Shown here in pieces: positions 6,854-37,006 of a DNA stretch of 64,000 nt. The stretch's first letter is position 1, and each line of letters opens with the position of its first letter. The stretch comes from Methylobacter sp. S3L5C. GTDB lineage: Bacteria; Pseudomonadota; Gammaproteobacteria; Methylococcales; Methylomonadaceae. The DNA is taken from positions 2,232,001-2,296,000 of the forward strand of contig NZ_CP076024.1 of the NCBI RefSeq assembly GCF_022788635.1. The letters are read 5' to 3'. The translations under genes were made by a program, and so were the position numbers. The notes beneath the pieces are model-generated. The model saw only the letters and a program-made list of their open reading frames with translations. It was not told where the DNA came from and did no database searches.

Positions 6854-7678
6854 GGTTGAGTGCTCTTGATTTTTGTGGAATGGAAAAGTTAATTTTTAGA
6901 GAAGTTAATAGTAGGAATACTTCAACTTATATAAAAAGTATTTGACAGTGTTAGAACATTTCATTGAAGAGTTGTTTGTTACTGTTTGTGGCATGCTTGT
7001 CAATCAGATAGTGAAAAGTTTTGAGCAAGATAAATCTTTACGTTACAAAACACCTGAAAATAAAAAATATTTTCAATAAGAATACTTTGTAAATATTACA
7101 ATTATGTTAAATAGCAGAAGTTGCACGGTTTTTGGGTCGTAACGTACTATAGAAAAAGAAATTAAAGTGGGACTTGCTGTAAATTACCTAAACCCTGCGT
7201 TAAATCTCTATTCAGCATAGGTAGCGTGATTGGCTTTGTTTGAAAATTGGGAAACTTCAGTTAAATAGTTTGAGTGAGTTATTTATTTCTTAATCTTGAT
7301 AGAATTATTTAAAAATGTTCGTCAATTGGGTCAGGTTTCAAAGCCAATAGGGGCTTGGGTTGCGAGTAATGTTTTTGTTAGCGCAAGTTAGCCATAAAGA
7401 ATAGCTTGTTTAAGAATTTAAGGGGGGGTGGATAAAATTTTCTGATAAAAATCAATCTGTAGGGCTGGATTTTACCGTACTTAAAAAGCAGTTAATCCTA
7501 AGTGCAGCAATCTTTAAAGGACTTGTTGATTTTATCTTTATGTCCTCGGCAAAACAGTGTAAGTATTAAGGTCAATTGGCTTTTGGTTGATTAAAATTTT
7601 TACGTCATAAAGCAGTCATATTAGCGTCATATAATAAAAAAATGACAAAAATTGATATGTACTTAAGTTATTACAGTC
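6854..7678. other. AT-rich divergent intergenic region
   Basis: This 825-bp gap separates the minus-strand DUF4347 gene from gspC on the plus strand, so it must carry promoters for both. No credible ORF, RNA gene or riboswitch was found. The only clear signal is the triple PhoB-like repeat at 7602-7630 next to gspC. For the minus-strand gene I saw only an AT-rich stretch around 6920-6960 and could not define a promoter. Confidence 0.5.
7602..7630 (+). promoter_or_regulatory. Putative triple PhoB box before gspC
   Basis: Three 7-mers ACGTCAT, CAGTCAT and GCGTCAT are separated by exactly 4 bp (AAAG, ATTA), an 11-bp period. The E. coli Pho box is built of CTGTCAT repeats with 4-bp spacers, so every unit keeps the GTCAT core. 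It ends 48 bp before the GTG of gspC, which suits an activator replacing the -35 box. A match by eye; binding is inferred. Confidence 0.65.
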
Positions 7679-8203
7679 GTGTTTAAATACACAATCCTGC
7701 AAAATCAATATTTTCCAAAAGCTGCTCTAATTCTTGCGTTAGCCTATTTTCTTTATGTAGCTATTCCAATTATTCAGGATTTTGGCACTCCCAAAACACG
7801 GGTCATGATAACTACTGACTTGGAGATGTTGGATCAAGAAAAACCCGAAAATAAACCAAGGGATTTTCTACTTATCCATGATTGGCATTTATTTGGACAG
7901 CTGCCGTCTGATGCCATTCAAATAAGTGATCAAAACGGTGTACCTCAAGAAACACAATTGCAAATCAAATTGTTGGGTGTTTTTTTTCTGCCGGATCAAA
8001 AAAATTCCAGTTATGCAATTATTGAGGCCGATGACAAATCACAAAAAAAATACCGTCCGGGTGATGACTTGCCGGGAGGTATTACTTTGCAATCGATAGC
8101 GAAAGAGCAGGTGATACTGCTGCGTAATAATCAGCGTGAATCCCTTTCCATGGACAGGAACAAAACGGGCTTGCTGTTTACAGATAAACAACCTACCTTA
8201 TAA
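7679..8203 (+). CDS. gspC: Type II secretion system protein C (inner-membrane linker)
   Basis: A 174-aa protein with one N-terminal membrane helix (AALILALAYFLYVAIPII, ~residues 15-32) and a periplasmic HR domain (WHLFGQLP, then LLGVFF...SYAIIEADDKSQKKYRPGDDLPGGITLQSIAKEQVIL). That pattern is diagnostic for GspC, which links the inner-membrane platform to the N-domains of secretin GspD. It is much shorter than the usual 270-300 aa and ends straight after the HR domain, so the C-terminal PDZ or coiled-coil module of classical GspC is absent. GTG start. gspD follows after 11 bp. First gene of the T2SS operon, under a probable PhoB box. Confidence 0.9.
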   Translation: MFKYTILQNQYFPKAALILALAYFLYVAIPIIQDFGTPKTRVMITTDLEMLDQEKPENKPRDFLLIHDWHLFGQLPSDAIQISDQNGVPQETQLQIKLLGVFFLPDQKNSSYAIIEADDKSQKKYRPGDDLPGGITLQSIAKEQVILLRNNQRESLSMDRNKTGLLFTDKQPTL

Positions 8204-8214
8204 CTATAAATTTT

Positions 8215-10098
8215 ATGTGCATGCGTTTGCTGGTCAGTCTGGTGTTGACTTTTTTTTGTGCTGTTTCGATGGCAGAAAAAGATGAGTTTTCACTTAATCT
8301 AAATAATGTTGATATTCACGCTCTGATTGAAACAGTGGCGGATGCCACCGGTAAAAATTTTATTGTCGATCCGCGCATAACCGGCAATATTTCAGTGGTT
8401 ACCTCAACACCAATGAAAGCCTCACAAGTTTATGACGTGTTTTTGTCGATACTTAAAGTACATGGGTTTTCAGCAATACCTAACGGTAATATTGTCAAGA
8501 TAATTCCCAATATCACGGCAAAACAGGATGGCGAAGAAAGTGAATTACGCGCACGTTCTTTAAACGGTGATGAGCAGTTAACCCGTATAGTCCAAGTACA
8601 TCATGTTGATGCTACTATGGTGGTTACCACTTTATTACCGTTAATGCCGCAATATGCTTTTATGGCAGCAGTACCCGAAAGTAATACCATTATTCTTTCT
8701 GATACTGCGGCTAATGTGAATCGTCTGGCGTCGATGATTAAACAAATTGATACCAGCGATGCGCAAAAAATTGAAATTATCAGTTTGCGTAATGCCAATG
8801 CGACCGATTTAATCCAGCCTCTTAATACCCTGATTGCCAGTACTAACGCAGGAAAAACCAATCCGGGCGGGCCGCCTTTGGTTGCTGATGATCGCTCCAA
8901 CTCTATTATAATTGGTGGTGCTCCTGATCTTCGTTTGCAATTAAGAGCCTTGATAGCCAATCTGGATACACCGATAGAAAAAGACGGTGACACCGATGTC
9001 ATTTATTTACACTATGCCGTGGCTAAAGAATTAGTTGAAACGTTGACGGGTGTTGGCGAAAAAAAAGACGGCAATTCAAATCAACCTAAAACCCAGGCCA
9101 CGACAGAAAAGACTTTTGATATTCGTGCTGATGATGCGACTAATTCATTGATTATCACCGCCCCTAACGAGAAAATGCGCTCACTTAAATCAGTCGTTAA
9201 ACAACTCGATATTCGCCGTGCCCAAGTTCATATTGAAGCGATTATTGCTGAAGTTAACTATGAGAAAGACCAAAATGTTGGCGTTGAATGGCATACCAAG
9301 TTGGTAGAAAACGGCGTTGCTGTCAATTCATCTCCAATTAGTCTGGGTGATATGGCTTCGAGTGTTGGAAAAGGCTTAAGTGTAGGTTACTTGGTAGGTA
9401 GTGAATTACGGGCATTACTGACCGCATTTGCAAAAGATAATAATGTTAATGTGTTATCAACGCCCTCTATTGTTACTCTGGATAATGAAGAAGCCAGTAT
9501 GCTTGTCGGACAAAATGTACCTATCTTGAGCGGTAGTTTTACGGCTGGGGCTGGCAGCGCTGCCAATGCCGTTAACACTTATACACGTCAAGATGTGGGT
9601 ACCATGCTAAAAGTTACGCCCCAAATTAATGAGGGCAATGCCATCAAGCTTAAGGTTAAACAGGAAGTATCCAGTGTTGAGACAACCGATACTAAAGGTG
9701 GTGGTGGTGCAACTTTAAACAAACGTGAAATAGATACCTCTGTTTTGGTTGATGACGGCAAGATTTTGGTTTTAGGTGGATTAATCGGGGATGATGTTCA
9801 GGTGACGGTGAACAAAGTACCTTTCTTGGGCGATTTACCTTTCCTGGGGTTTTTGTTTCAAAGCAATAGTACAAAGGTTGTAAAGACGAATTTAATGGTC
9901 TTTTTACGTCCGGTGATTATGCGTGATCCTGAAAAGGCTTCTTTGTTTACTAACGACAGATATAACGCTTTACGTAATAACCAGGAACAATCCGGAAAAC
10001 GGGGTTTAATGTTGATGCCCAACGAGCATGCGCCTATACTCCCCGAGTTGACACCTGACATACCTAATAATCCGGTTACATCGCAGACTATCAAATGA
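8215..10098 (+). CDS. gspD: Type II secretion system secretin
   Basis: A 627-aa outer-membrane secretin. A signal peptide (cleavage after VSMA, ~residue 21) is followed by N0 (FSLNLNNVDIHALIETVADATGKN..), N1-N3 repeats (VHHVDATMVVTTLLPL; ISLRNANATDLIQPL; IYLHYAVAKELVETL) and the C-terminal secretin domain with VLSTPSIVTLDNEEA, VGQNVPI and VPFLGDLPFLGFLF. The length is usual for the family. No extra S-domain for pilotin docking stands out after the secretin core. It forms the channel through which folded exoproteins leave. The start could be the first ATG (8215) or the second, two codons later. Confidence 0.95.
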   Translation: MCMRLLVSLVLTFFCAVSMAEKDEFSLNLNNVDIHALIETVADATGKNFIVDPRITGNISVVTSTPMKASQVYDVFLSILKVHGFSAIPNGNIVKIIPNITAKQDGEESELRARSLNGDEQLTRIVQVHHVDATMVVTTLLPLMPQYAFMAAVPESNTIILSDTAANVNRLASMIKQIDTSDAQKIEIISLRNANATDLIQPLNTLIASTNAGKTNPGGPPLVADDRSNSIIIGGAPDLRLQLRALIANLDTPIEKDGDTDVIYLHYAVAKELVETLTGVGEKKDGNSNQPKTQATTEKTFDIRADDATNSLIITAPNEKMRSLKSVVKQLDIRRAQVHIEAIIAEVNYEKDQNVGVEWHTKLVENGVAVNSSPISLGDMASSVGKGLSVGYLVGSELRALLTAFAKDNNVNVLSTPSIVTLDNEEASMLVGQNVPILSGSFTAGAGSAANAVNTYTRQDVGTMLKVTPQINEGNAIKLKVKQEVSSVETTDTKGGGGATLNKREIDTSVLVDDGKILVLGGLIGDDVQVTVNKVPFLGDLPFLGFLFQSNSTKVVKTNLMVFLRPVIMRDPEKASLFTNDRYNALRNNQEQSGKRGLMLMPNEHAPILPELTPDIPNNPVTSQTIK

Positions 10099-10130
10099 TG
10101 GTGGCTTTCAAGTTAAAGTTAAATTATTTT

Positions 10131-10163
10131 ATAGATACCATCCCTTTAAGGGATGGTATCTAT
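10131..10163. repeat. Perfect 33-bp palindrome between gspD and gspE
   Basis: A perfect 16-bp inverted repeat around one central base: the left arm is ATAGATACCATCCCTT and the right arm is its exact complement. Near-identical palindromes occur at 13004-13222 (split by a MITE) and 55795-55827 (imperfect). As RNA it folds into a strong hairpin inside the gspD-gspE transcript and could tune downstream expression. No T-tract follows, so it is not a classical terminator. Confidence 0.85.
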
Positions 10164-10183
10164 TCCAGATTAAGTCGGTAATT

Positions 10184-11704
10184 ATGATAAATACTGATCC
10201 GGTGTTAGTTTTGGATAGTGTGGAAGCAGGCGTTAAATTACCTTCTTACAGCTTTGCCAAAAGATATGGTATTTTGGTTAAAGAAAGTCCGGAATATAAG
10301 ACAGAAATTTTGTATCTGCAAAAAACACCCAGTCAGGCACTGTTTGAGATTCGAAGATTGGTTGGCAAGTCGGTTAACTTTGAGCAAATTAACGAAGAAA
10401 GCTTTGAGCGTTTGCTGCAAGAAGTTTACGAGCATAAGTCCGGCCATGCCCAGCAAATGGTTGACGACATGCAAGACAATCTTGATTTGTCTTACATGGC
10501 GCAGCATTTACCAAAGCCCGAAGATTTGCTGGAGAGTGCTGACGAAGCACCGATTATTCGTTTGATTAACGCTTTGCTGACGGAAGCAATCAAGGAAAAT
10601 GCCTCGGATATTCATATCGAATCCTACGAAAAACGCATGGTCGTGCGTTTTCGGGTGGATGGCACTTTACGAGAGATAATTGAGCCGCAACGCGAATTTG
10701 CACCGATGGTTATTTCCAGACTAAAAGTAATGGCCAAGTTGGATATCGCTGAAAAAAGACTGCCACAGGATGGGCGTATTTCCCTTAATATTGGCGGGCG
10801 AACGGTTGATGTGCGTGTGTCCACATTGCCTTCCGGTCATGGTGAACGAGTGGTGTTGCGGTTACTGGACAAACAGGCAAACCAGCTCAGTTTAAGGCAG
10901 ATAGGTATGGTTGATCAGGAACTGGACAGTATTCAGGAGATGATTGTCAGGCCGCATGGCATTATTCTGGTTACCGGACCTACCGGTTCCGGTAAGACTA
11001 CCAGTTTGTATGCGATTGTTAACCAGCTTAACGAACGTACCCGTAATATCCTCACGGTAGAAGATCCTATCGAATTTTATTTGGATGGTATTGGCCAAAC
11101 CCAAGTCAACAATAAAGTTGAAATGACCTTTGCAAAAGGTTTGCGAGCCATATTAAGGCAAGATCCTGATATTGTCATGGTTGGAGAAATACGTGACAGA
11201 GAAACCGCAGAAATTGCCGTACAAGCCAGTTTAACCGGCCATTTGGTACTATCAACGTTACATACCAATTCTGCAGTCGGTGCCATTACCCGGTTGCGTG
11301 ATATGGGCGTAGAACCCTTTTTACTCGCTTCAAGTCTGGTGGGCGTTATTGCACAGCGATTGGTGCGCAAGTTATGTCCGTTGTGTAAACAAGCGGTGAC
11401 GGTGCCGATTCATGAGCTGGAAAAGTTGGGCTATGTTGCCAATGACCAAGATACTGTCAGCGTTTATCAGGCACAAGGCTGCATGCAATGCGGCCAACGA
11501 GGCTTTAAAGGGCGTGTCGGTATATTTGAAATTATTTCCATTAATGCCGCAATGCGTAGTTTGATTCATGAATGTGCGGGTGATCAAGCCCTGGAGCAAC
11601 ATGCACGCTTGTTTTCTCGCAGCATACAGCAGAGTGCGCTCGAAAAAGTTCTTAATGGCGATACCAGTCTGGATGAAGCCATCCGAATTACTCAAAAGGA
11701 TTAA
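10184..11704 (+). CDS. gspE: Type II secretion ATPase
   Basis: A 506-aa cytoplasmic AAA+-like secretion ATPase that powers pseudopilus assembly. The N-terminal GspE N1E/N2E region is followed by the Walker A GPTGSGKTTS (~residues 265-274), Asp box and Walker B region DIVMVGEIRDRETAEIA (~329-345) and His box GHLVLSTLHTN. A tetracysteine zinc motif CPLC...CMQC (~398-436) sits in the C-terminal domain as in GspE/PilB proteins. The length is normal. gspF follows after 6 bp. An 85-bp gap from gspD contains the 33-bp palindrome. Confidence 0.95.
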   Translation: MINTDPVLVLDSVEAGVKLPSYSFAKRYGILVKESPEYKTEILYLQKTPSQALFEIRRLVGKSVNFEQINEESFERLLQEVYEHKSGHAQQMVDDMQDNLDLSYMAQHLPKPEDLLESADEAPIIRLINALLTEAIKENASDIHIESYEKRMVVRFRVDGTLREIIEPQREFAPMVISRLKVMAKLDIAEKRLPQDGRISLNIGGRTVDVRVSTLPSGHGERVVLRLLDKQANQLSLRQIGMVDQELDSIQEMIVRPHGIILVTGPTGSGKTTSLYAIVNQLNERTRNILTVEDPIEFYLDGIGQTQVNNKVEMTFAKGLRAILRQDPDIVMVGEIRDRETAEIAVQASLTGHLVLSTLHTNSAVGAITRLRDMGVEPFLLASSLVGVIAQRLVRKLCPLCKQAVTVPIHELEKLGYVANDQDTVSVYQAQGCMQCGQRGFKGRVGIFEIISINAAMRSLIHECAGDQALEQHARLFSRSIQQSALEKVLNGDTSLDEAIRITQKD

Positions 11705-11710
11705 GCAGAC

Positions 11711-12922
11711 ATGGCAGCATTTGAATATAAGGCAATCAATGTTAAATGCCAGACCGTTAAGGGCACTATTGAAAGTGACACTGTTAAAACAGCCAGGCAG
11801 CAATTAAAAAATAACGAACTAACTTTGCTGGAAATAGAAGAAGTTCATAAAAAAGAACATAGTAGTAAAAGCCCGTTACTTGTCCAGCGTATTAACATGC
11901 GGCAATTAGCGCATATTACTCGTCAGTTGGCAGCGTTGTTGGGTTCAGGTCTGTCGATTGATGAGGCTTTGGGCATTACGGCTAAACAACTGGACTCAGC
12001 AAAAGCCAAACGAATTTTGCTGGGTGTCAGAAGCCGGATTATGGAAGGTCAAAGTTTGGCACAGGCTTGCGGAGCCTTTCCAGGTACTTTTCCGCCGCTA
12101 TATCGAGCCACGGTGGAAGCCGGTGAATCATCAGGAAAGCTGGATCAGGTGTTACAACGATTAGCTGATTATATTGGCGATAAAGGTCAGTTACATAGTA
12201 AGTTGCAGATGGCAATGATTTATCCTGTCATGCTAACGTCGGTTTCCTTATTGGTTGTGATCGGCTTACTGGCTTATGTAGTGCCGGAAATAACCAGCGT
12301 ATTTGATAAAATGGGCGGTGAATTGCCGACCATTACTAAAGTGCTTATTGCCTGTAGCGATTTTTTTAAAAATTATGGGCTGATGTTATTGGCGCTTGTC
12401 ATTGGCTTGGCACTAGGTGCCAACGCCCTGTTGCAATTACCCGAACCACGCATGCGCTTTCATTATTTATTACTAAACATGCCGGTAGTTTCCCGCTTTG
12501 CCAAAGGCATGAATACTGCCCGATTTACCCGAACCTTGGCGATTTTGACTAATAGCGGTGTTGAATTATTACAGGCTTTAAAGATATCAAGTCAGGTATT
12601 GACCAATAATGCCATGCAGAAAGCTGTGGAAACGGCCGCCATCAAGGTTAGGGAAGGGCAAAGCTTAAACAAGGCAATGGAAGCAAGCGGCTTGTTTCCA
12701 CCGGTGACTATTCATCTAGTCGCCAGTGGTGAGGCCAGCGGTCAACTACCGAAAATGTTGGCGAGTGCCGCTGATGATCAAGAGCGGGACATTCAGGCGC
12801 TAACCGAAATGACCTTGGGACTGTTTGAACCCATACTCATTTTGTTTATGGGTTTGGTGGTACTGGCCATTGTGTTGGCGATATTATTGCCGATTTTTGA
12901 AATGAACCAACTCGTTCGATAG
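11711..12922 (+). CDS. gspF: Type II secretion inner-membrane platform protein
   Basis: A 403-aa polytopic protein with two T2SSF domains (ITRQLAALLGSGLSIDEALGI... and FTRTLAILTNSGVELLQALKIS...), each followed by membrane helices, and the final helix LFEPILILFMGLVVLAIVLAILLPIFEMNQLV. The duplicated GSGLSIDEAL / NSGVELLQAL motifs are the family hallmark. It couples GspE to the pseudopilus. The length equals E. coli-type GspF. It ends the first half of the operon; a 371-bp gap with its own probable PhoB box precedes gspG. Confidence 0.95.
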   Translation: MAAFEYKAINVKCQTVKGTIESDTVKTARQQLKNNELTLLEIEEVHKKEHSSKSPLLVQRINMRQLAHITRQLAALLGSGLSIDEALGITAKQLDSAKAKRILLGVRSRIMEGQSLAQACGAFPGTFPPLYRATVEAGESSGKLDQVLQRLADYIGDKGQLHSKLQMAMIYPVMLTSVSLLVVIGLLAYVVPEITSVFDKMGGELPTITKVLIACSDFFKNYGLMLLALVIGLALGANALLQLPEPRMRFHYLLLNMPVVSRFAKGMNTARFTRTLAILTNSGVELLQALKISSQVLTNNAMQKAVETAAIKVREGQSLNKAMEASGLFPPVTIHLVASGEASGQLPKMLASAADDQERDIQALTEMTLGLFEPILILFMGLVVLAIVLAILLPIFEMNQLVR

Positions 12923-12939
12923 TTTAAAAAATTATAGTG

Positions 12940-12957
12940 CTGTCATAATAATGTCAC
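12940..12957 (+). promoter_or_regulatory. Putative PhoB box between gspF and gspG
   Basis: CTGTCAT-AATA-ATGTCAC is a near-consensus Pho box (CTGTCAT repeats with a 4-bp spacer). The first unit is a perfect 7/7 match. AT-rich sequence with TATTAA about 15 bp downstream could be the -10 box. It would give gspG-M a second phosphate-responsive promoter about 340 bp upstream of gspG, now separated from that gene by a palindrome and a MITE. Confidence 0.65.
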
Positions 12958-13003
12958 TTTTGTTTTCTACGCTTATTAATTTACGCTACCAACTTAAGTC
13001 GGG

Positions 13004-13222
13004 ACAGATACCATCCCTTCAAGGGCATCTGTATCTACACAAGTCCTACAGCTCCTTCTCCAAAGGGAGAAGGTTGGGATGAGGGGAATGTAACTGCTTG
13101 ATTTTACTCTCCTCACCCCAGCCCTCTCCAACAAGAGAGGGTGCTTGACGCTTCTGCAACTCATTGTTTTTATTATGAGGAAAAGTTGTGTAGATACCCA
13201 TGCTTCAAGGGATGGTATCTGT
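13004..13222. repeat. 33-bp palindrome split by a MITE insertion
   Basis: The left part at 13004-13025 (ACAGATACCATCCCTT then CAAGGG) and the right part at 13212-13222 (ATGGTATCTGT) rejoin into a perfect 33-bp palindrome if the element at 13026-13202 and one 9-bp duplication are removed. It differs from the intact palindrome at 10131-10163 only at the second base (with its mirror) and the central base. Confidence 0.85.
13026..13202. mobile_element. MITE, copy 1 (177 bp) with 9-bp target duplication
   Basis: The termini CATCTGTATCTACACAA (13026-13042) and TTGTGTAGATACCCATG (13186-13202) form a 17-bp terminal inverted repeat, with three mismatches near the outer end. The 9-bp direct repeat CTTCAAGGG flanks it at 13017-13025 and 13203-13211. 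The interior carries CTCCTTCTCCAAAGGGAGAA and CCCAGCCCTCTCC segments and encodes no protein. Copy 2 is at 20219-20435. Taken together these are hallmarks of a non-autonomous DNA transposon. Confidence 0.88.
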
Positions 13223-13293
13223 AAATTCGTCCCGCTTTAATTTATCCTCGGCAACTGCCCGGGCTTACTTTTAATTTACTGGTTTACCTAACG

Positions 13294-13725
13294 ATGTCTG
13301 ATAAAAAATACCAAGGCTTTACCCTGATCGAAGTCATGATTGTTGTCGTTATTCTTGGCATTTTGGCGGCTATTATTGTCCCAAAAATCATGGGGCGACC
13401 TGATGAAGCCAGGGCAACGCGTGCGCTGCAAGATATTAGGGCTATTACCGCCGCGTTGGATTTATACCGGCTTGATAATTACAGCTACCCAACCACAGAA
13501 CAAGGCCTGGAAGCACTGGTGACCAAACCGGCCGGTATGGCGCAAGGTACGCATTGGAAGCAAGGCGGCTATCTTGACCAAATGCCAATGGATGCCTGGG
13601 GTAAACCGTATTTTTATCTTAAACCCGGTGTTCATGGTGAGTTTGATCTGTATTCTTACGGTGCCGACGGCATAGAAGGCGGAGCCGAAGCGGGCGCAGA
13701 TATAACCAACTGGACTCAGAAATAA
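13294..13725 (+). CDS. gspG: Type II secretion major pseudopilin
   Basis: A 143-aa pseudopilin. The prepilin peptidase site is G/FTLIE after a short leader (MSDKKYQG), followed by the hydrophobic helix VMIVVVILGILAAIIVP. The C-terminal region has the GspG signature (YPTTEQGLEALV, DAWGKPYFY, DLYSYGADG), with the Asp and Gly residues of the calcium site. It forms the pseudopilus shaft. The length is normal. No prepilin peptidase gene (gspO/pilD) is in the window, so processing must come from elsewhere. Confidence 0.96.
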   Translation: MSDKKYQGFTLIEVMIVVVILGILAAIIVPKIMGRPDEARATRALQDIRAITAALDLYRLDNYSYPTTEQGLEALVTKPAGMAQGTHWKQGGYLDQMPMDAWGKPYFYLKPGVHGEFDLYSYGADGIEGGAEAGADITNWTQK

Positions 13726-14015
13726 ATGGCCGGCATCCATTAGCCGCGTTGGGTTAGCGACAGCGAGACGTTAACTTAAGACATTTCACCACGAAAACAC
13801 GAAGAACACGAAGATCTTGCTTTGGTTTTTCTTCGTGAACTTCGTGTCTTCGTGGTGAATTAATATCTTTAAGTTGATGTGTATGGGGTTAGCGACAGCC
13901 AGCCCTACAAAGATTATTAGCATTTTTTGTGATAAAAAAGTGTCAACTAATTTTTGGCTTTTATGAAGGATGCCGAATTTTTCTGTGCTTTTCGTGGACA
14001 AACTGATTTTTTTAC
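13726..14015. repeat. gspG-gspH gap with inverted TTCACCACGAAG repeat
   Basis: The 290-bp gap carries a tight inverted repeat: the left arm at 13785-13813 (TTCACCACGAAAACACGAAG...) and the right arm at 13831-13859 are complementary over most of 29 bp around a 17-bp loop. A solitary half-arm, GTGCTTTTCGTGGAC, lies at 13986-14000. No coding potential seen. A strong hairpin here could lower gspH-M expression relative to gspG, which is needed in excess. Confidence 0.7.
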
Positions 14016-14528
14016 ATGAACAAAGCTAAAGGCTTTACCCTGATTGAATTACTTATTGTTCTGGTTTTAATAGGCTTGATAACGGGTATGGCCATGTTGT
14101 CAATGGGTACCGCTGATCCGCGTGATCAGCAAAAGCTTGAAGCGGAAAGGCTGGTTAAACTTCTGGAACTGGCTACGCAGGAAGCGGTTACCCGTGGCGA
14201 TAATATAGGTTTTGAATTATTCAGGCAGGGTTATCGCTTTACCGTAGTAAAAAAAAATAAATGGCAGCCAGAAACAACGGATGGGGTATTCAAGTCACGT
14301 ATTTTGCTGCCGCAGATGTTGCTGGAACTGGCTATGGATGAACACGATGTCGTCTTAACGCGTCAGTCCGTTGAATCTGTCGATCCAAAACCACAGATTA
14401 TTTTGACCCCTGATGGCGATATGGAATTGTTTAAAATCAGAATAACGATCAAGGATGGCGATAGTATTTTTTGGGTGAGTAATACCCCAGAAGACGGATT
14501 GGTGATTAGCACCGAAAACAAACCATGA
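14016..14528 (+). CDS. gspH: Type II secretion minor pseudopilin H
   Basis: 170 aa. Prepilin leader MNKAKG/FTLIELLIVLVLIGLITG with Glu at +5, then a diverse C-terminal beta domain containing the GspH-like LEAERLVKLLELATQEAVTRGDNIGFE stretch. It is a minor pseudopilin, expected in the pseudopilus below the GspI-J-K tip. It overlaps gspI by 4 bp (ATGA), so the two are translationally coupled. Assigned from position, leader and the helix following the membrane segment. Confidence 0.9.
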   Translation: MNKAKGFTLIELLIVLVLIGLITGMAMLSMGTADPRDQQKLEAERLVKLLELATQEAVTRGDNIGFELFRQGYRFTVVKKNKWQPETTDGVFKSRILLPQMLLELAMDEHDVVLTRQSVESVDPKPQIILTPDGDMELFKIRITIKDGDSIFWVSNTPEDGLVISTENKP

Positions 14529-14899
14529 ACAAGGTTGCTTTTAGTCATCGTGAAAATGGTTTTACCTTGCTGGAAGTATTGATAGCATTGGCATTACTGG
14601 CTATTTTAATGGTGAGTGCCATTAAAATTACCGCAGATAATATTAATAACTTGTGGTATTTGGAAAACAAAACGATTGCGGCGATTATTGCAAGTAATCA
14701 TGCTGTGCAATTACGCCTTGATAAAGAAAAACCGGAAACACAAGATGGCTGGGATGAAATGGCCGGGCGACGTTGGTATTGGCAAATCAAACGAAATAAA
14801 GCCGTTATTTCAGGGGTGTGGCGTTACCGTATTGAGGTTTTTTTGGAAGGTGACAAAACGGCTCTTTTTGGTTTAATCAGCGATGTCAGTAAAAATTGA
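14525..14899 (+). CDS. gspI: Type II secretion minor pseudopilin I
   Basis: 124 aa. Leader ...RENG/FTLLEVLIALALLAILMVSAIKI, the typical GspI start, then NLWYLENKTIAAIIASN and the late WRYRIEV segment seen in T2SSI proteins. It forms the tip complex with GspJ and GspK that starts pseudopilus assembly. It overlaps gspH by 4 bp and is followed after 54 bp by gspJ. Confidence 0.92.
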   Translation: MNKVAFSHRENGFTLLEVLIALALLAILMVSAIKITADNINNLWYLENKTIAAIIASNHAVQLRLDKEKPETQDGWDEMAGRRWYWQIKRNKAVISGVWRYRIEVFLEGDKTALFGLISDVSKN

Positions 14900-14953
14900 T
14901 GAGAATTCTAGCTTTTAAGGTAGCGAGGCACGCCCTACAAGGAATGTTCAGTA

Positions 14954-21657: not shown

Positions 21658-21698
21658 ATTATGCGAATTTTAATTTTAAACATAATTGGTATTAACAA

Positions 21699-26634: not shown

Positions 26635-26712
26635 TTAGTGTCAAACCTAAACCCGTTGTGAAGCGGGGGCAGAAAGTTGCGGATCTTGCCTGGCAAGATG
26701 GCCGGACTATCA
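26635..26712 (+). promoter_or_regulatory. Cyclic di-GMP-I-like riboswitch before the giant adhesin
   Basis: The same core as at 21570: AAACCCGTTGTGAAGCGGG, GGGCAGAAAG, a P3 stem ATCTTGCC / GGCAAGAT with a 2-base loop, then GGCCGGAC. The closing P1 arm (GGACTATC instead of GGGTTGCC) is degenerate, so ligand binding is less certain than for the first. It ends about 40 bp before the ATG at 26755. Confidence 0.68.
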
Positions 26713-26754
26713 TTTACTAAAGCATGTTAATTATTATTGTTAAAGGTTACAACC

Positions 26755-29700: not shown

Positions 29701-32700
29701 ACGATTGGTCTTCAAGTAACGTCGGGTAGTATATTTGTCGATGGCGTGATTAAAACCGCCGGAGGTAATATTAATCTTAATATTGATACCGCACCTCAGC
29801 TTGAATATGATGCAACTCAAGCGATATGGCTGGGTAAAAATGCCTGGCTTTCCGTTACAGGCGATACCCGCTTGAATCCTGTTGATGTATTGGGTCGTCG
29901 TACAGGAACCGTAATGGATGGCGGTAAAATAACGCTTGATGGAACACGTGGTTATGTGATTCTGGAGCATGGATCATTGATTGATGTTTCAGGCACGCAG
30001 AGAGTGCTCGATATACAACAAGCCGATGCCTCTGGTTTTAGTAATAATTATATGGCAACCCCGATTGCTTCCAATGCCGGTACTGTAAGCATTAAAGCGG
30101 CAGAAGGCATTGTTCTGGACGGCACTATTCAAGGTTTTGGGGGTTCAGCAACCACTCACGGAGCCCGTCTTGATGTCGCCATGGATAGATCATCTCGTAG
30201 CCCTCTTGCTGGTGCTACAAATTTTCCGGATGGCTCGTTTGATTTTACTATTGTCCAGACTGGTCAATCAACACTGGATAAAAGTGTGAAGTTTGGCGAT
30301 GTAATTCCTGTTGCACTTAACGGACAGGCAATAATCAGTGCCGATAAAATTGCGCAAGGCGGAATTTCTGATTTCCGGTTAATTAGTTCTATAAAGAATA
30401 CTACGCCTGTTAAAGTAAGCTTCCTGGGTGACGTTAATCTGACGACCAACGAACGGATCAGTATCGATGCGCAAAGATTGGAATGGGCTAACGACAAAAC
30501 TTCCGGTACGGTCAATCTTAATACGGCTTATTTAACAATAGGCTCATCGTTAAGTCGCGAAGTCCTTGATTTACCAACGACAGGAGCCGGTAAATTAACG
30601 GCAAATACGCAGTGGACAGAATTATTCGGAGCTACGCGTTGGGATGCGTTTAGTGACATTACGCTGAAGAGTACTCATGATTTACGGGCTGTTGGGGTGC
30701 GTAATGGCGAGCAACGAGATTTTCTGGGAGCTTTGGTTACAGCCGCTAATTTAAATTTACAGGCGAGTCAGATTTACCCATCAACTTTAAGCAGTTTTAC
30801 TTTTGCCATCAAGAATAATCCGACAGGTGACATTTCCATAACTGGCATCAATACAGATGCTTCGCCATTGTCTGCTGGTGGAGCGCTAAACTTTACAGCG
30901 CCATTTATTAATCAGAAAGGAGTCATTAAAGCCCCTTTAGGTACCATAAATTTAACGGCTACTAAACAGTTAACGTTAGGCGAAGGAAGTTTAACTTCCG
31001 TTTCGGCAGCCAATTTATTAATTCCTTTTGGGGTGGCAGCCGGTGGACTTGATTGGCTATATCCACTGGATAGCAGCAGAAATTTGCTTAAAAACACGCC
31101 ACCAGAAAAACAGGTGATCTTAAATGCGCCTGACATCAATCTAACAAAAGGCAGTGTGATCGATATTTCTGGTGGTGGTGATTTGCAAGCTTATGAATTT
31201 CAGCCGGGTGCGGGCGGTTCTTATGATTATCTACAACCTGGCAGTGCATCTTACCAAGGCGGCTTTGCAATTATGCCATCGCTTGGGACACAAATCGCAC
31301 CCTTTGATCAATACGAAAGTGTCGGCACAGCTGCTTTTGCGCCGGGCAGCACCATTTATCTAAACGGGAGTAGTCAATTAGCGGCAGGACAATATACTAT
31401 TTTACCTGCTCATTATGCCTTGTTACCCGGTGCATTCTTGATTACACCTCAGGCTAATTCACAGGATCGTAGTTTTGCTTCATATACCAAAGATGGTCTG
31501 CCGATTGTGTCTGGTTATCAAATGCTGGCTGGGACATCCGTTCAAGATTCACGTACCAGTGCTTATAAAATAGAAACATCTGCTCAAGTTAAAATACAAT
31601 CTCAATACGATATACAAACGGCTAACAACTTCGCTGAGCAATATGCACTGAGAAATGAAACCAGTGTGCCGTTGTTACCTATGGATAGTGGACAAATTTC
31701 AATTGTCGCGCAAACCAAGTTGCTATTGGACGGTACTATTAAATCAGCAGCACCAGGTGGTCGAGGTGCCAGAATGGATATTGCTGCGGATAATATTGAA
31801 GTTGTCACCAGTCTGGATTCAATAAATACTCAGGGTACGCTTCAGATTTTGGATAGTGCCTTGAACAATCTCAAGGTTGATAGTTTATTGTTGGGTGGAG
31901 CACGTAAAAGAAATGTCGACGGTTCGACTGATGTGAGTGTTACTGCAAACATGGTTAGTTTCGATAGCGGTACCCAATTAATGGTTACTGATCTGATTGC
32001 CGCTGCAAAACAAAAAGTCGAAGTTAAAACCGGAGCAACACTGGAAGCCAAGGGTAGTGTTAATGCCGGTGATTCCATTGTTAATATTATCAATGTAACC
32101 GGTACAACGCCCGATACCTATAATGACGGTGCCTTTTTAAGGCTGTCGGCAGATAAGCAAATTATCTTAAATCGTGCTTCAATAACGGGTAATAATGGCG
32201 AATTGGTGATAGAAAGCGGTGCCACATTGAAGGCATCCAAATCAATGCTGTTGGATGCCAGTCAATCGTCCAGGCTGGAGGGTGATATTTTAATGAACGG
32301 CGGTTCGTTAAACTTGGGTGCCAACGCTATTAACTTGGGCGATGTGGCAGGATTTACCGGTAATGCTTTAAATTTGAGTAACCAGAAATTATTAAATTTA
32401 TCTGTCGATGAACTGATTTTAAACAGTCGGGGTACTATCGGTTTCCATGGTAATGTTGGTCAGGTTGATGCGCCTATAAAATTCGATCGGCTGGTTATTA
32501 ATGCTGCCGGATTTTCGGGTTTCGGCAGTAGTGGTCAGGCGGTCAGCTTGGAAGCTAATGACCTGGTATTGGCAAATCCGTTCAGCGTTATTGCAACGAC
32601 CACAGGTAACGGGTTGGGTGGCCTGGATTTATTGGCAACTAATTTTACTCAGGGAGCGGGAACCTTTGCAGTTAACGGCTTTAACACTGTAAATGTAAAT

Positions 32701-35700
32701 GCGAAAAACGGCTTTATCACTAATGGCAATAGCGGTTTGACAGTTGCCTCAGATTTAAATTTAAACGCCGGATACTTAACGGCCACCAGTGGCTCCAGTT
32801 TTAAACTGGATGCCAGCGGGCATAACCTCAATGTCAATGGTAATGGTAGTGCAATCAGTGCAGTATCTCCCGGTTATGGTGGGGCAATGGAGTTTATTGC
32901 TGATACTATCGCTTTCGATGCCAATGCGTTATTACCTTCGGGTAAGTTAAATCTACATGCTTTGGTTGGAAATATGGCTGTCGGTTCGGCTGCAAATATT
33001 GATCTGGCCGGGCGGGCGGTGATTTTTGCCGATACGATTGATTACACTCCCGGCGGTACATTTACTGCCATTGCCGATAACGGCGCAGTAACGCTGGCTT
33101 CGGGATCGAAACTGGATGTCAGCACGGGTGGCGGTTCGGCGACGGGCGGCAATCTGGTTCTTAAGGCTCCCAAGCAGACCGTTACCTTGGCTGGGCAAAT
33201 CAAGGCCAGCGGCGGTAGTGCAGAATTTGATGTATCTACTTTTAGCGGTTCATCCAATTTTGACAGTCTGATGGGCGTTCTCAATAATGCCGGTATAGAC
33301 AGTTCAATTTATTTCCATAGCCGCGATGCTGACATCGTGCAAACGGCAACTAATATAATCAACGCTAATAATGTAACGTTGGTCGCTGATAAAGGAGCTG
33401 TTGATCTATTCGGACAGACTCATGTTAATGGTGTCGATCAGGGCGGTAAAATTAGTGTTTATGCGGGCGGTAAAATCACCTTGGAAAACGGCAGTCAACT
33501 GACGGCAACCGGTGCCAAGGGTGGCAAAGTCTTACTTTCCTCGGTTGATGGTGATGGTACAGGCACCCGGGATGGTATCGAGTTGAAAGACGGTTCGCTG
33601 ATTGATGTCAGCGGAGCGACTGTCGGCGGAGATGTTACTTTACGCGCCTTGAGAGTGGGTAACGATATTAATATTCAACCCATTGCCGGTACGGTCAAGG
33701 GAGCGGCCAGATTTTATGCGGAAGGCGTTAAAAAGTACAGTAACGCTGACTTGAATAGTGATGGGCAAATCAATGCCAATGATATCGCCAATATTCAAAA
33801 TGACACAGCTGTCTATATGACAAATATGGATAATGTCGCGACAAGACTGGGTCATGGTATAAGTCTGACTCCGGGAGTTGAAATCGACTATACCGGTGCA
33901 CTGGCTCTAAGCGATAAATGGGATCTGGTTGATTGGCGTTATAACAGCAATGCAGGCAATCTGGTTATCAGGGCATCTGAGGGGTTAACGATGAGTCAGT
34001 CATTAACCGATGGCTTTAAGGATCAATCTATTTTTTATGACAAGGATTGGTTTGGGTCAATGAGGACATTTGAAATACCTATAGCTGATAAATTACAGTC
34101 AGGTAATTCATGGTCTTATACTTTGGTTTCCGGTGCCGATTTATCGACCGCTGACAATCAAGTCGCGCCATACAAGAATGATTTGGTCATAGGTTCAGGT
34201 GCCACGGTTCGAACCGGGAGCGGTGATATGAAGCTTATTGCAGGGCGCGATATTACCTTTACTGATGGTTCTTCTACCGTGTACAACGGGGGTAAGCCGA
34301 CAGATAAAGATCCTTACGGTTCTTTGACAAGCAATTTTTTGGATAGCTTCCTGTATGCCGAGTTTCCTGTGGCTGGTGGCGATCTGTCATTAGTTGCAGG
34401 AGGCAATATCAACGGTACTAGCGGTACCCAAGGCAGTAGTTATTTTAATGATTGGTTGTTGCGCACCGGTAATACTTTGTTAGAAAACGGTCCTACAGTT
34501 TGGGGCGTTGCCTTGGGTTATCGCCCAGAGGTCTATAGTCAATCACCTTTCCAACAGAATATAGGGTCTTTCGGCGGAGGTAATGTTTTGATTCAAGCAA
34601 AGGGTAATATCAGTAACCTTGATGTGATGATGCCGACTACCGGTAAGCAAACAGGCACAATTTGTACGGTTAATTGTAGTAGTGAAGCGTCTTTTATTAC
34701 GAATCAAGTTGAAATTAATGGCGGGGGTAATATGCAGGTTAAAGCCGGTGGCGATATTGCCGGTGGCACTTATTATCTGGGTAAAGGAGCAGGCCTGATT
34801 TCAGCGGATGGATCCGTGACAGGGGGTAGTCAGTTTACTAAAGGCCCACAACTATTAACGGGAGATACTCAATTTTCTGTTTATGCGGGTAAAGATGTTA
34901 ATTTGACCGGTGTGTCTGACTCCATGATTTTGGGTAATAGCGATGTTAACTTTTTCAGTTATACCGATGCCAGCGCTTTGACGGTTAAATCGCTTACGGG
35001 TAGTGTCAACTTGAATTCAGATGCTACTGTAATAAGTAATTTATATGGATTTTCGAGTGATACGCAAAGTTTGGCGCAAATTTATCCAGGGTCTTTGTAT
35101 GTGAGTGCATTTAGCGGCAACATTGATTTAAAGCAAAATATAGTGTTATTCCCGTCAGCAACTGGACAATTGAACCTGCTGGCTGAGCAGAATATTACTT
35201 CAATGCTCGGAATTGCCTTGGGTATGTCTGACGGGAATAAATCATTATTACCCGATGCCTATACGTTAATGGCAAGCGGCAGTGCCGCAACTTTAATGGT
35301 AAACCGTATTTATCCATTTGCTGTTTATCCAGAAAATTTAAATCATGCAACTATACCAATACATACGGGAGATCAAGAGCCTGTCAGGGTGATTACCCGA
35401 TCAGGTGATATTGAAAACATCAACTTTAATTTGGCAAAAAAATCACTAATTAAAGCAGGTCGGGATATTAAAAATCTTACCTTGGCGATACAGAATATAA
35501 GTCCATCTGATGTTTCACTGTTGGAAGCTGGACGTGATATTACTTATACCAGTGGACGAAATCCGACTACCGGCGGGCTGCTGGCTAACGATGCAAAAGT
35601 CGAATTTTCAGGTCCCGGAGAAGTTTTGGTCAAGTCAGGACGTAATATTGATTTGGGTGCGTCAGGTGGATTGTCTACCGTAGGTAACGTTTATAACTCC

Positions 35701-36813
35701 AATCTGGCTAATAAGGGCGCTAATCTTACGGTCATCGCAGGAGCTAATAGTCAGGTAAATTATGCCGGGTTTATTAATACTTATCTTAAAGATAGTGCTA
35801 AATACAAAGTCGCTTTCGATAAGGCGAGCACCCTGATTACCGGATTTATGCGTGAACGCTTAAACCAACCCATATTGAGTGATGTCGATGCACTAAAAGC
35901 ATTTACTGTATTGACTGAAGATCAGTATGTTGCCATTCAGCCGCAATTATCCGCACTGGTTTTGCCGGTCATGTTTAATGAGGTCAATTTATCAGGGAGC
36001 GCTGCAGCAGCAGCTACATCAGATTCAGCCAAGAAAGCTTTTTATGAGTCGGGTACTGCGGCAATTAATGCCCTGTTTCCGGATAGTAACTGGAAGGGTG
36101 ATTTGAGTTTGTTTTTCAGTAAAATACAAACCGTAGATGGTGGTGATATTAACTTATTGGTACCCGGTGGGCAGATTAATGCCGGTCTGGCGGTTTCTTT
36201 TACCGGAGCCAAGCCTTCTTCTGAGCTGGGTATAGTGGTTCAGCGAGAAGGCAATATTAATGCAGTGGTAAATAATGACTTTTTGGTTAACACGTCGCGG
36301 GTATTTGCTCTGGATGGCGGCGATATTCAGATCTGGTCATCAACGGGTAATATTGATGCCGGTAAAGGGGCCAAGTCGGCGATTGCTGCGCCGCCACCGA
36401 AAATCAGTTTTGATACGAATGGTAATTTGGTTATTGAATTTCCGGCTATTGTTTCAGGTAGTGGTATCCGTACAGCAGCCAGTTCGAGTGGTGCAATTCC
36501 AGGCAACGTTAGTTTATTTGCACCGATAGGTGTGGTTAATGCCGGTGAAGCAGGTATCGGTGGCACTAACGTAACTATTTCCGCAACTGCCGTTTTAGGA
36601 GCCAACAATATTCAGGTTGGCGGCGTCAGTACTGGTGTGCCGGCTGCCTCAACCGGTAGTTTGGCAGCAGGTTTGACTGGAACCAGTAATATGACGGCTA
36701 GTGTTAGTCAAGTAGCACAAGCGGTAACCGGAATGGATGATGGTGGCGCAGAAACCAACAAAAATGCAGCGTTGGGCATGTTTAGTGTCGAGGTGCTGGG
36801 TTTTGGTGACTGA
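26755..36813 (+). CDS. Giant two-partner-secretion filamentous haemagglutinin-family adhesin (TpsA)
   Basis: About 3352 aa. The ATG at 26755 has AAGG eight bases upstream and is preferred over TTG 26737. A long signal peptide (~46 aa, ending VVVPTHA) precedes the TPS domain (~47-290) with NWQSFNVG, IALNRI and the NQNGFVFG motif (NPNG type), which TpsB recognises. A very long Gly/Ala/Asn/Ser-rich beta-helix follows. Near residue 2332 is an EF-hand/dockerin-like DLNSDGQINANDI, and near 2640 a CTVNC pair. The C-terminal ~600 residues (NLLVPGGQINAG, GNIDAGKGAKSAIAAPPP) match the DUF3739 end of filamentous haemagglutinin family outer-membrane proteins. It should be a surface fibre. Its leader carries a c-di-GMP-I-like riboswitch. 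Confidence 0.92.
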   Translation: MSHKTPLILLKPVENLFRLKPLVAYMRVVIAGGLFAGVVVPTHAELPVPVVAGGFVSSGSATNTIIGNTLRIDQQSDKAILNWQSFNVGKENTVQFVQPGSSSIALNRINQADPSQIFGQIIANGQVYLYNQNGFVFGKDSVVNTNSLLASTLNITDEAFNQGITRVFDDNNGEAALAIEPMKSGATMDPKTARILIEAGAKIHTDKSGRIIIVAPTIDNKGSLSSDNQGQIILAASQDKVYLQAASTDSPFAGLVVEVDTGGTVTNAGDILAKQGNITMAGFAVNQQGRLSATTSVNVNGSIRLLAQEGHGKLGDQLISTSTTRGAALDDGLGTKATVTFAPGSVTQVIADANGGTAIDEQLQPESYLEVSANTVNLQSGSAIKVTGGKVDITATDNLADPTLGHSGRIYVESGALIDVSGTKGVVAPMARNVGQVSVQSYELRDAPLQRTGVLKGETINVDLRKPTSIVDISGALARITRGIDERLGIGGQINLTASGDVIINDGANIDISGGSVIYQDGYINTTKLMNDFGGIVDISDADPNEHYQAIFGVVTENHQKWGVTTVYNILDQFGPGLFQKGYVEGKDAGAINIKAPLMTWNGNLSAGTSISEVQRSIANMPVGGTFAVDLSVFQSLQNVLFQTDKNNLQIALNDKFPKQTNNKPIDLVLTEALFKGTGVANVSVKSWGNSTLSAGASIEMTPGGTISLEASSINIDGTIKAAGGTINLTAATNDLINLVTATNDVLLKPGLVTIAEKAVLDVSGAWVNDFQQGLNATPTDLLTIDGGKITIKAGGDLLADVGSVMRADGGGWLNSVGKLAPGDGGAINLAAVGSSGTPSMLRINSDLSAYGLTKSGELSLSSDKIIVGTANSATDDVKHALVLGVSNNNFNLLPDMGFSAVNLDANTGDLKVKGDAALDLKTKNLELKDGFRGMKTGSSIRDFTDIVLLPENLRSPLSLTLAGTTGVSVESGSSIVADKGSTIGLQVTSGSIFVDGVIKTAGGNINLNIDTAPQLEYDATQAIWLGKNAWLSVTGDTRLNPVDVLGRRTGTVMDGGKITLDGTRGYVILEHGSLIDVSGTQRVLDIQQADASGFSNNYMATPIASNAGTVSIKAAEGIVLDGTIQGFGGSATTHGARLDVAMDRSSRSPLAGATNFPDGSFDFTIVQTGQSTLDKSVKFGDVIPVALNGQAIISADKIAQGGISDFRLISSIKNTTPVKVSFLGDVNLTTNERISIDAQRLEWANDKTSGTVNLNTAYLTIGSSLSREVLDLPTTGAGKLTANTQWTELFGATRWDAFSDITLKSTHDLRAVGVRNGEQRDFLGALVTAANLNLQASQIYPSTLSSFTFAIKNNPTGDISITGINTDASPLSAGGALNFTAPFINQKGVIKAPLGTINLTATKQLTLGEGSLTSVSAANLLIPFGVAAGGLDWLYPLDSSRNLLKNTPPEKQVILNAPDINLTKGSVIDISGGGDLQAYEFQPGAGGSYDYLQPGSASYQGGFAIMPSLGTQIAPFDQYESVGTAAFAPGSTIYLNGSSQLAAGQYTILPAHYALLPGAFLITPQANSQDRSFASYTKDGLPIVSGYQMLAGTSVQDSRTSAYKIETSAQVKIQSQYDIQTANNFAEQYALRNETSVPLLPMDSGQISIVAQTKLLLDGTIKSAAPGGRGARMDIAADNIEVVTSLDSINTQGTLQILDSALNNLKVDSLLLGGARKRNVDGSTDVSVTANMVSFDSGTQLMVTDLIAAAKQKVEVKTGATLEAKGSVNAGDSIVNIINVTGTTPDTYNDGAFLRLSADKQIILNRASITGNNGELVIESGATLKASKSMLLDASQSSRLEGDILMNGGSLNLGANAINLGDVAGFTGNALNLSNQKLLNLSVDELILNSRGTIGFHGNVGQVDAPIKFDRLVINAAGFSGFGSSGQAVSLEANDLVLANPFSVIATTTGNGLGGLDLLATNFTQGAGTFAVNGFNTVNVNAKNGFITNGNSGLTVASDLNLNAGYLTATSGSSFKLDASGHNLNVNGNGSAISAVSPGYGGAMEFIADTIAFDANALLPSGKLNLHALVGNMAVGSAANIDLAGRAVIFADTIDYTPGGTFTAIADNGAVTLASGSKLDVSTGGGSATGGNLVLKAPKQTVTLAGQIKASGGSAEFDVSTFSGSSNFDSLMGVLNNAGIDSSIYFHSRDADIVQTATNIINANNVTLVADKGAVDLFGQTHVNGVDQGGKISVYAGGKITLENGSQLTATGAKGGKVLLSSVDGDGTGTRDGIELKDGSLIDVSGATVGGDVTLRALRVGNDINIQPIAGTVKGAARFYAEGVKKYSNADLNSDGQINANDIANIQNDTAVYMTNMDNVATRLGHGISLTPGVEIDYTGALALSDKWDLVDWRYNSNAGNLVIRASEGLTMSQSLTDGFKDQSIFYDKDWFGSMRTFEIPIADKLQSGNSWSYTLVSGADLSTADNQVAPYKNDLVIGSGATVRTGSGDMKLIAGRDITFTDGSSTVYNGGKPTDKDPYGSLTSNFLDSFLYAEFPVAGGDLSLVAGGNINGTSGTQGSSYFNDWLLRTGNTLLENGPTVWGVALGYRPEVYSQSPFQQNIGSFGGGNVLIQAKGNISNLDVMMPTTGKQTGTICTVNCSSEASFITNQVEINGGGNMQVKAGGDIAGGTYYLGKGAGLISADGSVTGGSQFTKGPQLLTGDTQFSVYAGKDVNLTGVSDSMILGNSDVNFFSYTDASALTVKSLTGSVNLNSDATVISNLYGFSSDTQSLAQIYPGSLYVSAFSGNIDLKQNIVLFPSATGQLNLLAEQNITSMLGIALGMSDGNKSLLPDAYTLMASGSAATLMVNRIYPFAVYPENLNHATIPIHTGDQEPVRVITRSGDIENINFNLAKKSLIKAGRDIKNLTLAIQNISPSDVSLLEAGRDITYTSGRNPTTGGLLANDAKVEFSGPGEVLVKSGRNIDLGASGGLSTVGNVYNSNLANKGANLTVIAGANSQVNYAGFINTYLKDSAKYKVAFDKASTLITGFMRERLNQPILSDVDALKAFTVLTEDQYVAIQPQLSALVLPVMFNEVNLSGSAAAAATSDSAKKAFYESGTAAINALFPDSNWKGDLSLFFSKIQTVDGGDINLLVPGGQINAGLAVSFTGAKPSSELGIVVQREGNINAVVNNDFLVNTSRVFALDGGDIQIWSSTGNIDAGKGAKSAIAAPPPKISFDTNGNLVIEFPAIVSGSGIRTAASSSGAIPGNVSLFAPIGVVNAGEAGIGGTNVTISATAVLGANNIQVGGVSTGVPAASTGSLAAGLTGTSNMTASVSQVAQAVTGMDDGGAETNKNAALGMFSVEVLGFGD

Positions 36814-36917
36814 GGTTTTAGCTTGGGAAATTAATATGGGTAAATTAAAAGCCCTGTAAATTTACTGTTTGCTTCGACAGTTTAAAAGTGGTTTTCAATA
36901 TTATATTCAACCCTCTC

Positions 36918-36954
36918 AATCCGGTTTTAATGTGGTTAAAGCCGGATTTTTTTT
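36918..36954 (+). terminator. Rho-independent terminator after tpsA
   Basis: The stem AATCCGGTTTTAA / TTAAAGCCGGATT (one G-U pair) around a short loop is followed by eight T. Strong terminator closing the tpsA transcript. Confidence 0.9.
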
Positions 36955-36988
36955 GCCTCCCATATCAGTACCGTCGCTTTGTAAGCCA

Positions 36989-37006
36989 TCGTCATAATAA
37001 TGTCAT
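36989..37006 (+). promoter_or_regulatory. Putative PhoB box before the exbB-like gene
   Basis: TCGTCAT-AATA-ATGTCAT: two units 11 bp apart with 5/7 and 6/7 matches to CTGTCAT. The spacer and second unit are almost identical to the box at 12940. It ends 34 bp before the ATG at 37041, and the tpsA terminator lies upstream, so this is a plausible fresh promoter. Confidence 0.6.

Follow-up and report, generated by a model that had tools for sequence, protein, structure and literature searches.

An island of surface-export genes in the methanotroph Methylobacter sp. S3L5C, comprising a type II secretion system (T2SS), a two-partner secretion (TPS) pair and an ExbB-ExbD-TonB motor with a putative porin, is very probably a Pho regulon that corresponds, in this methanotroph, to the Pseudomonas hxc-lapA/psp-pdtAB-exbB2D2-tonB4 region. 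The window that we analysed is the whole stretch of 64,000 nucleotides between bases 2232001 and 2296000 of the 4.8-Mb single-contig genome, and positions below are those of the window. Our interpretation is built on sequence, matrix scores, architecture, conservation and synteny, from which we infer that PhoB binds the boxes and that the island is induced, where its transcripts begin and end, what is exported and what the motor and a riboswitch do. An earlier reading of the window, made from its letters alone (the sequence-only reading), had proposed that T2SS, TPS and Ton genes form one phosphate-starvation regulon, and this proposal finds support in sequence and in conservation.

Pho boxes at the predicted promoters of the island

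To score candidate sites we used a Pho-box matrix (CTGTCATAATctTGTCATA) that was learned de novo from the upstream regions of pstS-type genes in relatives; 46 of 61 genomes gave a match, 30 loci were used and the genome of S3L5C itself was excluded. The top motif of this search was the Pho box, found as CTGTCATAATctTGTCATATAA plus a one-base shift of it, and it was present in 24 of the 30 training regions. The pst genes of S3L5C have a Pho box of their own, and on two native promoters outside the training set the matrix gave 28.3 bits (pstS) and 24.8 bits (the phosphate-selective porin gene, Porin_O_P). The genome also encodes a PhoB, which scores 341 bits against a family cut-off of 296. The sites found in the window and the elements next to them are as follows.

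7602..7631, + strand: tandem Pho boxes before gspC, three 11-bp units (14.3 bits at 7602, 15.1 bits at 7613)
7630..7635, + strand: -10 element of the gspC promoter, TATAAT
12940..12957, + strand: Pho box before gspG (18.4 bits, the top match of the window)
12985..13285, no strand assigned: dispersed repeat, inserted between the Pho box and gspG (37 genome matches, this copy included)
21130..21148, - strand: Pho box 74 bp before the 20535-21056 gene (15.6 bits; 3 mismatches to the E. coli consensus)
21295..21355, + strand: cluster of weaker Pho-box-like matches (11.5, 9.6 and 13.2 bits)
24533..24550, + strand: Pho box of tpsB, second half degenerate (8.7 bits with the full matrix)
36989..37006, + strand: Pho box before exbB (14.3 bits)

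The sequence-only reading had described GTCAT repeats with an 11-bp period at 7602, 12940, 24533 and 36989. Such repeats are present at three of these positions, with GTCAT units at 7604, 7615 and 7626 before gspC, GTCATAATAATGTCAC at 12942 and GTCATAATAATGTCAT at 36991; the latter two boxes do share their spacer, AATAAT between the cores in both, and the site at 12940, which had been called near consensus, indeed ranks first in the window with the pst-trained matrix. At 24533 there is no 11-bp GTCAT repeat: CTGTCATAAAAC is followed by CTTAACT, so that the first half is perfect and the second half, with its CTTAAC, is degenerate. Four sites was also an incomplete count for the island, since the box at 21130 (-) and the weaker ones at 21295-21355 (+) had been missed.

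Nine window matches reached at least 13 bits, compared with a mean of 0.91 in 100 shuffles (largest 4), and five reached at least 14 bits, compared with a mean of 0.58 (largest 3; again 100 shuffles); these five include 21130 (-) and the overlapping pair 7602/7613. In 400 kb sampled from the S3L5C genome there were 8 matches of at least 13 bits, and 4 in 360 kb once two 20-kb stretches that had been placed deliberately over pst and porin genes were taken out. The boxes of the island are real and more than chance, as had been supposed of the four sites, although of those four it is three that lie far above shuffled sequence with the pst-trained matrix, the site at 24533 having 8.7 bits. Two further matrices were built, one from six sites in the order's other families, five of these sites being from a single genus, and one from 14 same-genus sites. 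With the other-families matrix the four sites of the sequence-only reading rank 3 to 9 of 127,964 window positions, 24533 being sixth with 12.9 bits; with the same-genus matrix 12940, 36989 and 7602/7613 lie within ranks 1 to 10, while 24533 drops to 153. The E. coli Pho-box consensus, as quoted in PMC2225411 (all papers given here by PMC number are used in excerpt), finds only 12940, 21131 (-) and 24533 in the window when up to 3 mismatches are allowed, and 24533 has 2.

Each of the four sites is followed, exactly 10 nt past the second half of the box (units 1 and 2 in the case of gspC), by the start of a -10-like hexamer. Besides the gspC element these hexamers are TACGCT at 12968 (gspG), TATAAT at 24561 (tpsB) and GATAAT at 37017 (exbB), and the native pstS and phosphate-selective porin genes have TATCCT, likewise 10 nt from the box. 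The 11-bp register of the species' own Pho box is matched by 7602/7613, 12940 and 36989 and half matched by 24533. Among exbB orthologues, counted in 75 of the best 80 of 101 loci, a hexamer NA[TC]A[AC]T stands at that exact offset in 47 of 75, and every other offset has at most 5. The arrangement is that of a class II promoter, whose -35 element is replaced by the Pho box; such replacement is the usual case in E. coli, but sigma-VreI promoters do not show it (PMC4971064).

Conservation of the boxes in relatives

The boxes are kept in many, though not all, orthologous loci of gspC, gspG and exbB, as the sequence-only reading would have them. For exbB we took the best 80 of 101 loci. A first pass over 65 of the 80, listed by hand (of the 15 omitted, some had no N-terminus or upstream DNA and the remainder are mostly distant loci), gave at least 12 bits in 30 of 65 and a shuffle p of at most 0.02 in 51 of 65. 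A second pass under a uniform rule gave at least 12 bits in 28 of 72 and at least 10 bits in 42 of 72, and under this same rule 12 bits were reached before exbD in 0/77, tonB in 0/22, the porin gene in 1/64 and the next two genes in 0/49 and 0/24 loci. Many exbB orthologues have the box at about -50 to -63, and many relatives show half-sites TGTAAC, which are unlike GTCAT.

The gspC box was found in five of the six relatives that have an orthologue, four at 12 bits or more and the fifth at 11.1 bits, the sixth being without. Orthologues of gspG carry a box of at least 12 bits in 5 of 9 relatives, compared with none of 8 gspG homologues that are further removed (42-46% identical, from other relatives; 8 of 20 loci scored). 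S3L5C itself has a second gspG, of this distant kind. The position of the gspG box varies, from -354 here to -168 in one relative (G004) and -93 in four others. Before tpsB, in an alignment of 11 of the 24 scored regions, TGTCATAAA, TTAAC and TATAAT are largely kept at fixed spacing while the flanks have diverged, and two of the aligned relatives score 16.7 and 19.7 bits at that block in an overlapping register.

Gene order is conserved as well. Three relatives share the succession of gsp genes, a small opposite-strand gene, a binding-protein-like gene, tpsB and tpsA; in two of them exbB-exbD-tonB-porin follows downstream, and in the third the stretch ends before exbB. The gspM gene directly adjoins the small opposite-strand gene in G011, G012 and G014, and the binding-protein-like gene adjoins tpsB in relatives.

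Gene content and relation to known systems

The genes of the island are listed below; the gsp assignments were made with Pfam.

7679..18191, + strand: gspC to gspM, type II secretion genes, each above its Pfam cut-off
7679-8203, + strand: gspC
8215-10098, + strand: gspD
10184-11704, + strand: gspE
11711-12922, + strand: gspF
13294-13725, + strand: gspG
14016-14528, + strand: gspH
14525-14899, + strand: gspI
14954-15562, + strand: gspJ
15559-16506, + strand: gspK
16499-17701, + strand: gspL
17664-18191, + strand: gspM
18450..19754, + strand: insertion sequence-type transposase gene within the island, 3' of gspM (DDE transposase matches below cut-off)
20535..21056, - strand: conserved 173-aa protein, in the same place in three relatives
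21699..22451, + strand: exported protein with a VPLPA-type C-terminal sorting signal (match below family cut-off)
22528..24231, + strand: periplasmic-binding-protein-like protein with an apparent signal peptide (by eye), a possible Psp/LapA counterpart
24623..26281, + strand: tpsB, two-partner secretion transporter (POTRA_2 and ShlB)
26755..36813, + strand: tpsA, giant filamentous-haemagglutinin-like exoprotein (TPS domain and DUF3739)
37041..38858, + strand: DUF2341 / laminin-G-like / MotA-TolQ-ExbB fusion, here exbB (domain matches)
39157..39561, + strand: exbD (domain match)
39693..40484, + strand: tonB-like (domain match)
40542..42278, + strand: putative porin (PF16930)
42279..42956, + strand: protein of unknown family, after the porin in many relatives too

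The ExbB fusion is 98% identical to its Methylobacter psychrophilus counterpart, and for the combination of DUF2341 with ExbB the literature searched, seen in part, yielded only a general remark on extra domains. Cultured relatives that carry the exbB module include M. psychrophilus, Methylovulum miyakonense and a Methylomonas laboratory strain. The open reading frame (ORF) of tpsA is listed from a TTG at 26737, with an in-frame ATG at 26755. The 20535-21056 protein has no Pfam or NCBIfam match; by eye, the N-terminal half of this protein, whose gene lies between the T2SS and TPS genes, looks like a DNA-binding helix. A downstream second copy of the final 20 codons of tpsB, 95% identical, was seen at 26388-26447 and is perhaps the trace of a local duplication.

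In P. aeruginosa, hxc, lapA, pdtA, pdtB, exbB2-exbD2-tonB4 and PA0696-PA0700 lie together and belong to a PhoB-dependent regulon (PMC7035377, PMC4971064). This PUMA3 / sigma-VreI regulon (hxc-lapA-pdtA-phdA-pdtB-exbB2-exbD2-tonB4-PA0696) is described in those excerpts as one locus with Pho boxes and PhoB dependence, and it has in common with the island a T2SS, a DING-like exoprotein (a possible counterpart here), a TPS pair, ExbB-ExbD-TonB and a putative porin, PA0696, directly after tonB4, being likewise called a putative porin and likened here by name. The sequence-only reading knew of no described example in a methanotroph, and we too found none of a T2SS/TPS/Ton phosphate regulon in the open literature, which was surveyed in part; the main text of a paper on phosphate in Methylosinus OB3b does not contain the words secretion, TonB, hemagglutinin or porin. 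Because the island resembles the PhoB-controlled P. aeruginosa region, which that reading had left unnamed, we do not count it as a system of a new kind.

The two loci also differ. Compared with PUMA3, the boxes here stand directly on sigma70-type promoters, 10 nt from the -10 element; tpsB precedes tpsA, and there are cyclic di-GMP (c-di-GMP) riboswitches, one of them before tpsA. PUMA3 has an adjacent extracytoplasmic function (ECF) sigma factor, a FecR-like anti-sigma factor and a VreA-like receptor; this set was not found in the island, and no sigma or FecR domain was detected among the 39 window ORFs scanned against Pfam. The island would work like PUMA3 but is not classed as a PUMA3 system. 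No full-length P. aeruginosa match appeared among the best 80 of 101 loci or among 15 of 195 records.

A similar order is known from P. fluorescens SBW25, in which hxc is followed by psp, encoding a phosphate-binding exoprotein, and then by the gene for the 4083-aa haemagglutinin Pflu2428 (PMC2225411). The island repeats the succession of T2SS, phosphate-binding exoprotein (binding-protein-like here) and giant haemagglutinin. Phosphate limitation induces SBW25 psp, for which a Pho box is predicted, but not hxcR (PMC2225411), whereas here both proposed gsp promoters bear boxes. In Caulobacter a T2SS lies beside ElpS, a protein exported under phosphate starvation; no TPS or Ton module is named in the abstract on this system, 'tonb' occurring 5 times in the body of the paper (PMC2996285).

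Plasmid-borne loci are intermediates that link the island and the Pseudomonas systems. A Methylosinus plasmid carries genes for a sigma factor, FecR, TpsB, DUF2341-ExbB, ExbD, TonB and a porin together, along with a peptidylprolyl isomerase, YbjN, a haemagglutinin and a substrate-binding protein. Its sigma gene is preceded by a 13.1-bit box, the best of the 41.8-kb stretch. By name only, the porin, YbjN and the peptidylprolyl isomerase have P. aeruginosa counterparts in PA0696, PA0698 and PA0699, respectively. The TPS-ExbB-ExbD-TonB-porin module lies near gsp genes on a Cupriavidus plasmid and, by tblastn, near gspF/gspG on a Burkholderia plasmid, and on a Methylomagnum plasmid exbB-exbD-tonB is found near alkaline phosphatases. 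The best box of this Cupriavidus locus (L292, 10571-10589, - strand; 12.9 bits) precedes a gene that lies among gsp genes and encodes a DNA/RNA non-specific nuclease, and this nuclease is possibly a phosphorus-scavenging T2SS cargo.

The binding-protein-like gene and the c-di-GMP riboswitches

Weak but repeated evidence suggests that the 22528 protein is a relative of binding proteins. It matches PBP_like_2 at E 0.0016, below the curated cut-off, while 7 of 21 homologues match at E values up to 0.5, the best being 1.8e-6, and hhalign of its profile with PstS gave 80% over 54 columns. A single-sequence search of the PDB gave no match; with this result and a Pfam score below cut-off, we did not accept 22528 as a plain PstS.

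Two aptamers precede genes of the island.

21569..21659, + strand: c-di-GMP-I-GGC riboswitch aptamer upstream of the 21699 gene (Rfam RF03167, 62.7 bits, E 2e-12)
26636..26714, + strand: c-di-GMP-I riboswitch aptamer before tpsA (Rfam RF01051, 45.9 bits)

At the Rfam gathering score a c-di-GMP riboswitch is present in 4 of 25 tpsB loci, this one included, and looser criteria applied to 13 of the others added no c-di-GMP aptamer, so that the feature is not universal. The loci L261, L262 and L266 carry one as well, roughly 1 kb ahead of their binding-protein-like gene. No report that joins a c-di-GMP riboswitch to two-partner secretion was found in the open literature searched. Upstream of two tpsB genes, weak Qrr-like matches below the gathering score were seen.

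Proposed mechanism and alternative explanations

On phosphate exhaustion, phosphorylated PhoB would bind the direct-repeat boxes, which stand in for a -35 element, and recruit housekeeping sigma70 polymerase to the -10 hexamer 10 nt downstream. Separate promoters would serve gspC-F, gspG-M, tpsB (with or without the binding-protein gene) and exbB-exbD-tonB-porin. Since no sigma or FecR domain was found in the scanned window ORFs, PhoB probably acts directly, a sigma factor encoded elsewhere in the genome being possible. The T2SS would probably export proteins that scavenge phosphorus, among them a phosphate-binding (PstS/DING-like) one, TpsB may display the giant TpsA fibre, additionally gated by the c-di-GMP riboswitch, and the ExbBD-TonB motor may energise outer-membrane uptake or assembly.

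Several findings weigh against this interpretation. Genome-wide, the bare pattern GTCATN6GTCAY has 27 exact matches, 4 of them in the island, and its reversed control has 22; because the control is hardly rarer, the pattern alone proves nothing, and its genome-wide count was dropped as proof. The E. coli consensus (up to 3 mismatches) misses 7602 and 36989, and its window count of 3 is reached in 3 of 100 shuffles. Both counts would suit an origin of the GTCAT repeats by chance from AT-rich intergenic DNA, an explanation that we regard as next to negligible, contradicted already by the excess of matrix matches over shuffles, the fixed spacing to the -10 element and the conservation with its in-operon and distant-homologue controls. 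That conservation has gaps: exbB upstream regions score below 12 bits in 44 of 72 loci (below 10 in 30), tpsB upstream regions reach 12 bits in only 4 of 24, and 4 of 10 gspG and 1 of 7 gspC orthologues (those of S3L5C counted) are without a box, while one of the 8 distant gspG homologues does have a 9.7-bit match with a p of 0.01. The hexamer TACGCT at 12968 is a poor -10 element. The binding-protein-like gene at 22528 is without a box within 400 bp upstream, and one stands directly before the binding-protein gene, at p of 0.02 or less, in only 3 of 20 loci, on which ground a general rule of this kind was rejected. Finally, the induction of SBW25 psp but not hxcR implies that a T2SS beside a Pho gene need not be Pho-regulated.

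The most serious competitor, though we think it rather unlikely, accepts the boxes as true PhoB sites and restricts the response: exbB and the gsp genes would belong to the Pho regulon, and tpsB/tpsA would answer mainly to another signal, such as the c-di-GMP riboswitch, or to constitutive sigma70 transcription. It draws on the degenerate tpsB box, the riboswitch ahead of tpsA and the perfect tpsB TATAAT, which may work without an activator; yet the tpsB half-site and its spacing to the -10 element are largely kept in 10 relatives whose flanks are not, two of them with the high-scoring boxes in overlapping register described above. Far less probable is that the repeats serve another regulator of the OmpR family, one whose direct-repeat motif resembles that of PhoB. 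The genome does encode nine further full-length PhoB-like regulators, all below the PhoB cut-off, and the TGTAAC half-sites of many relatives would fit such a protein, but the motif comes from pstS-type promoters and also marks the Porin_O_P gene, and the like gene set in Pseudomonas is under Pho-box control.

Returning to PhoB control of the whole island, we can also offer a fuller picture, as a speculation that is improbable in all its parts together: a two-signal surface phosphate scavenger, in which PhoB would act through sigma70 on all modules and c-di-GMP, as an attachment signal, would gate TpsA translation, a T2SS-exported phosphate binder would dock on the fibre, the DUF2341/laminin-G-ExbB motor and the porin would drive phosphorus uptake, and direct PhoB control would be ancestral, with a sigma-VreI-like relay arising later in Pseudomonas and Methylosinus. 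If the Pho-regulon interpretation is true, a phosphate-starvation secretion locus studied in Pseudomonas for virulence extends to methane oxidisers, and as infection is an unlikely purpose in these organisms, this would suggest that its wider role is to scavenge phosphorus or to aid attachment. The island would further offer four precise promoters with native controls for testing phosphate limitation in a methanotroph, and a clean comparison in promoter wiring between direct PhoB control and PhoB plus an ECF-sigma relay.

Features next to the island

A phosphate-related gene lies close to the island, at 56455-59223 (-), and encodes a polyphosphate kinase with an N-terminal methyltransferase-like fusion; no box match of at least 12 bits was found in front of it. 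The DUF4347 giant protein at 2489-6853 (-) and the VPLPA protein at 21699-22451 (+) are, by eye, closely alike over about 190 residues. Adjoining the island, the stretch 46458-55249 holds polysaccharide export genes together with genes for an exosortase (EpsH type) and a GDP-mannose dehydratase.

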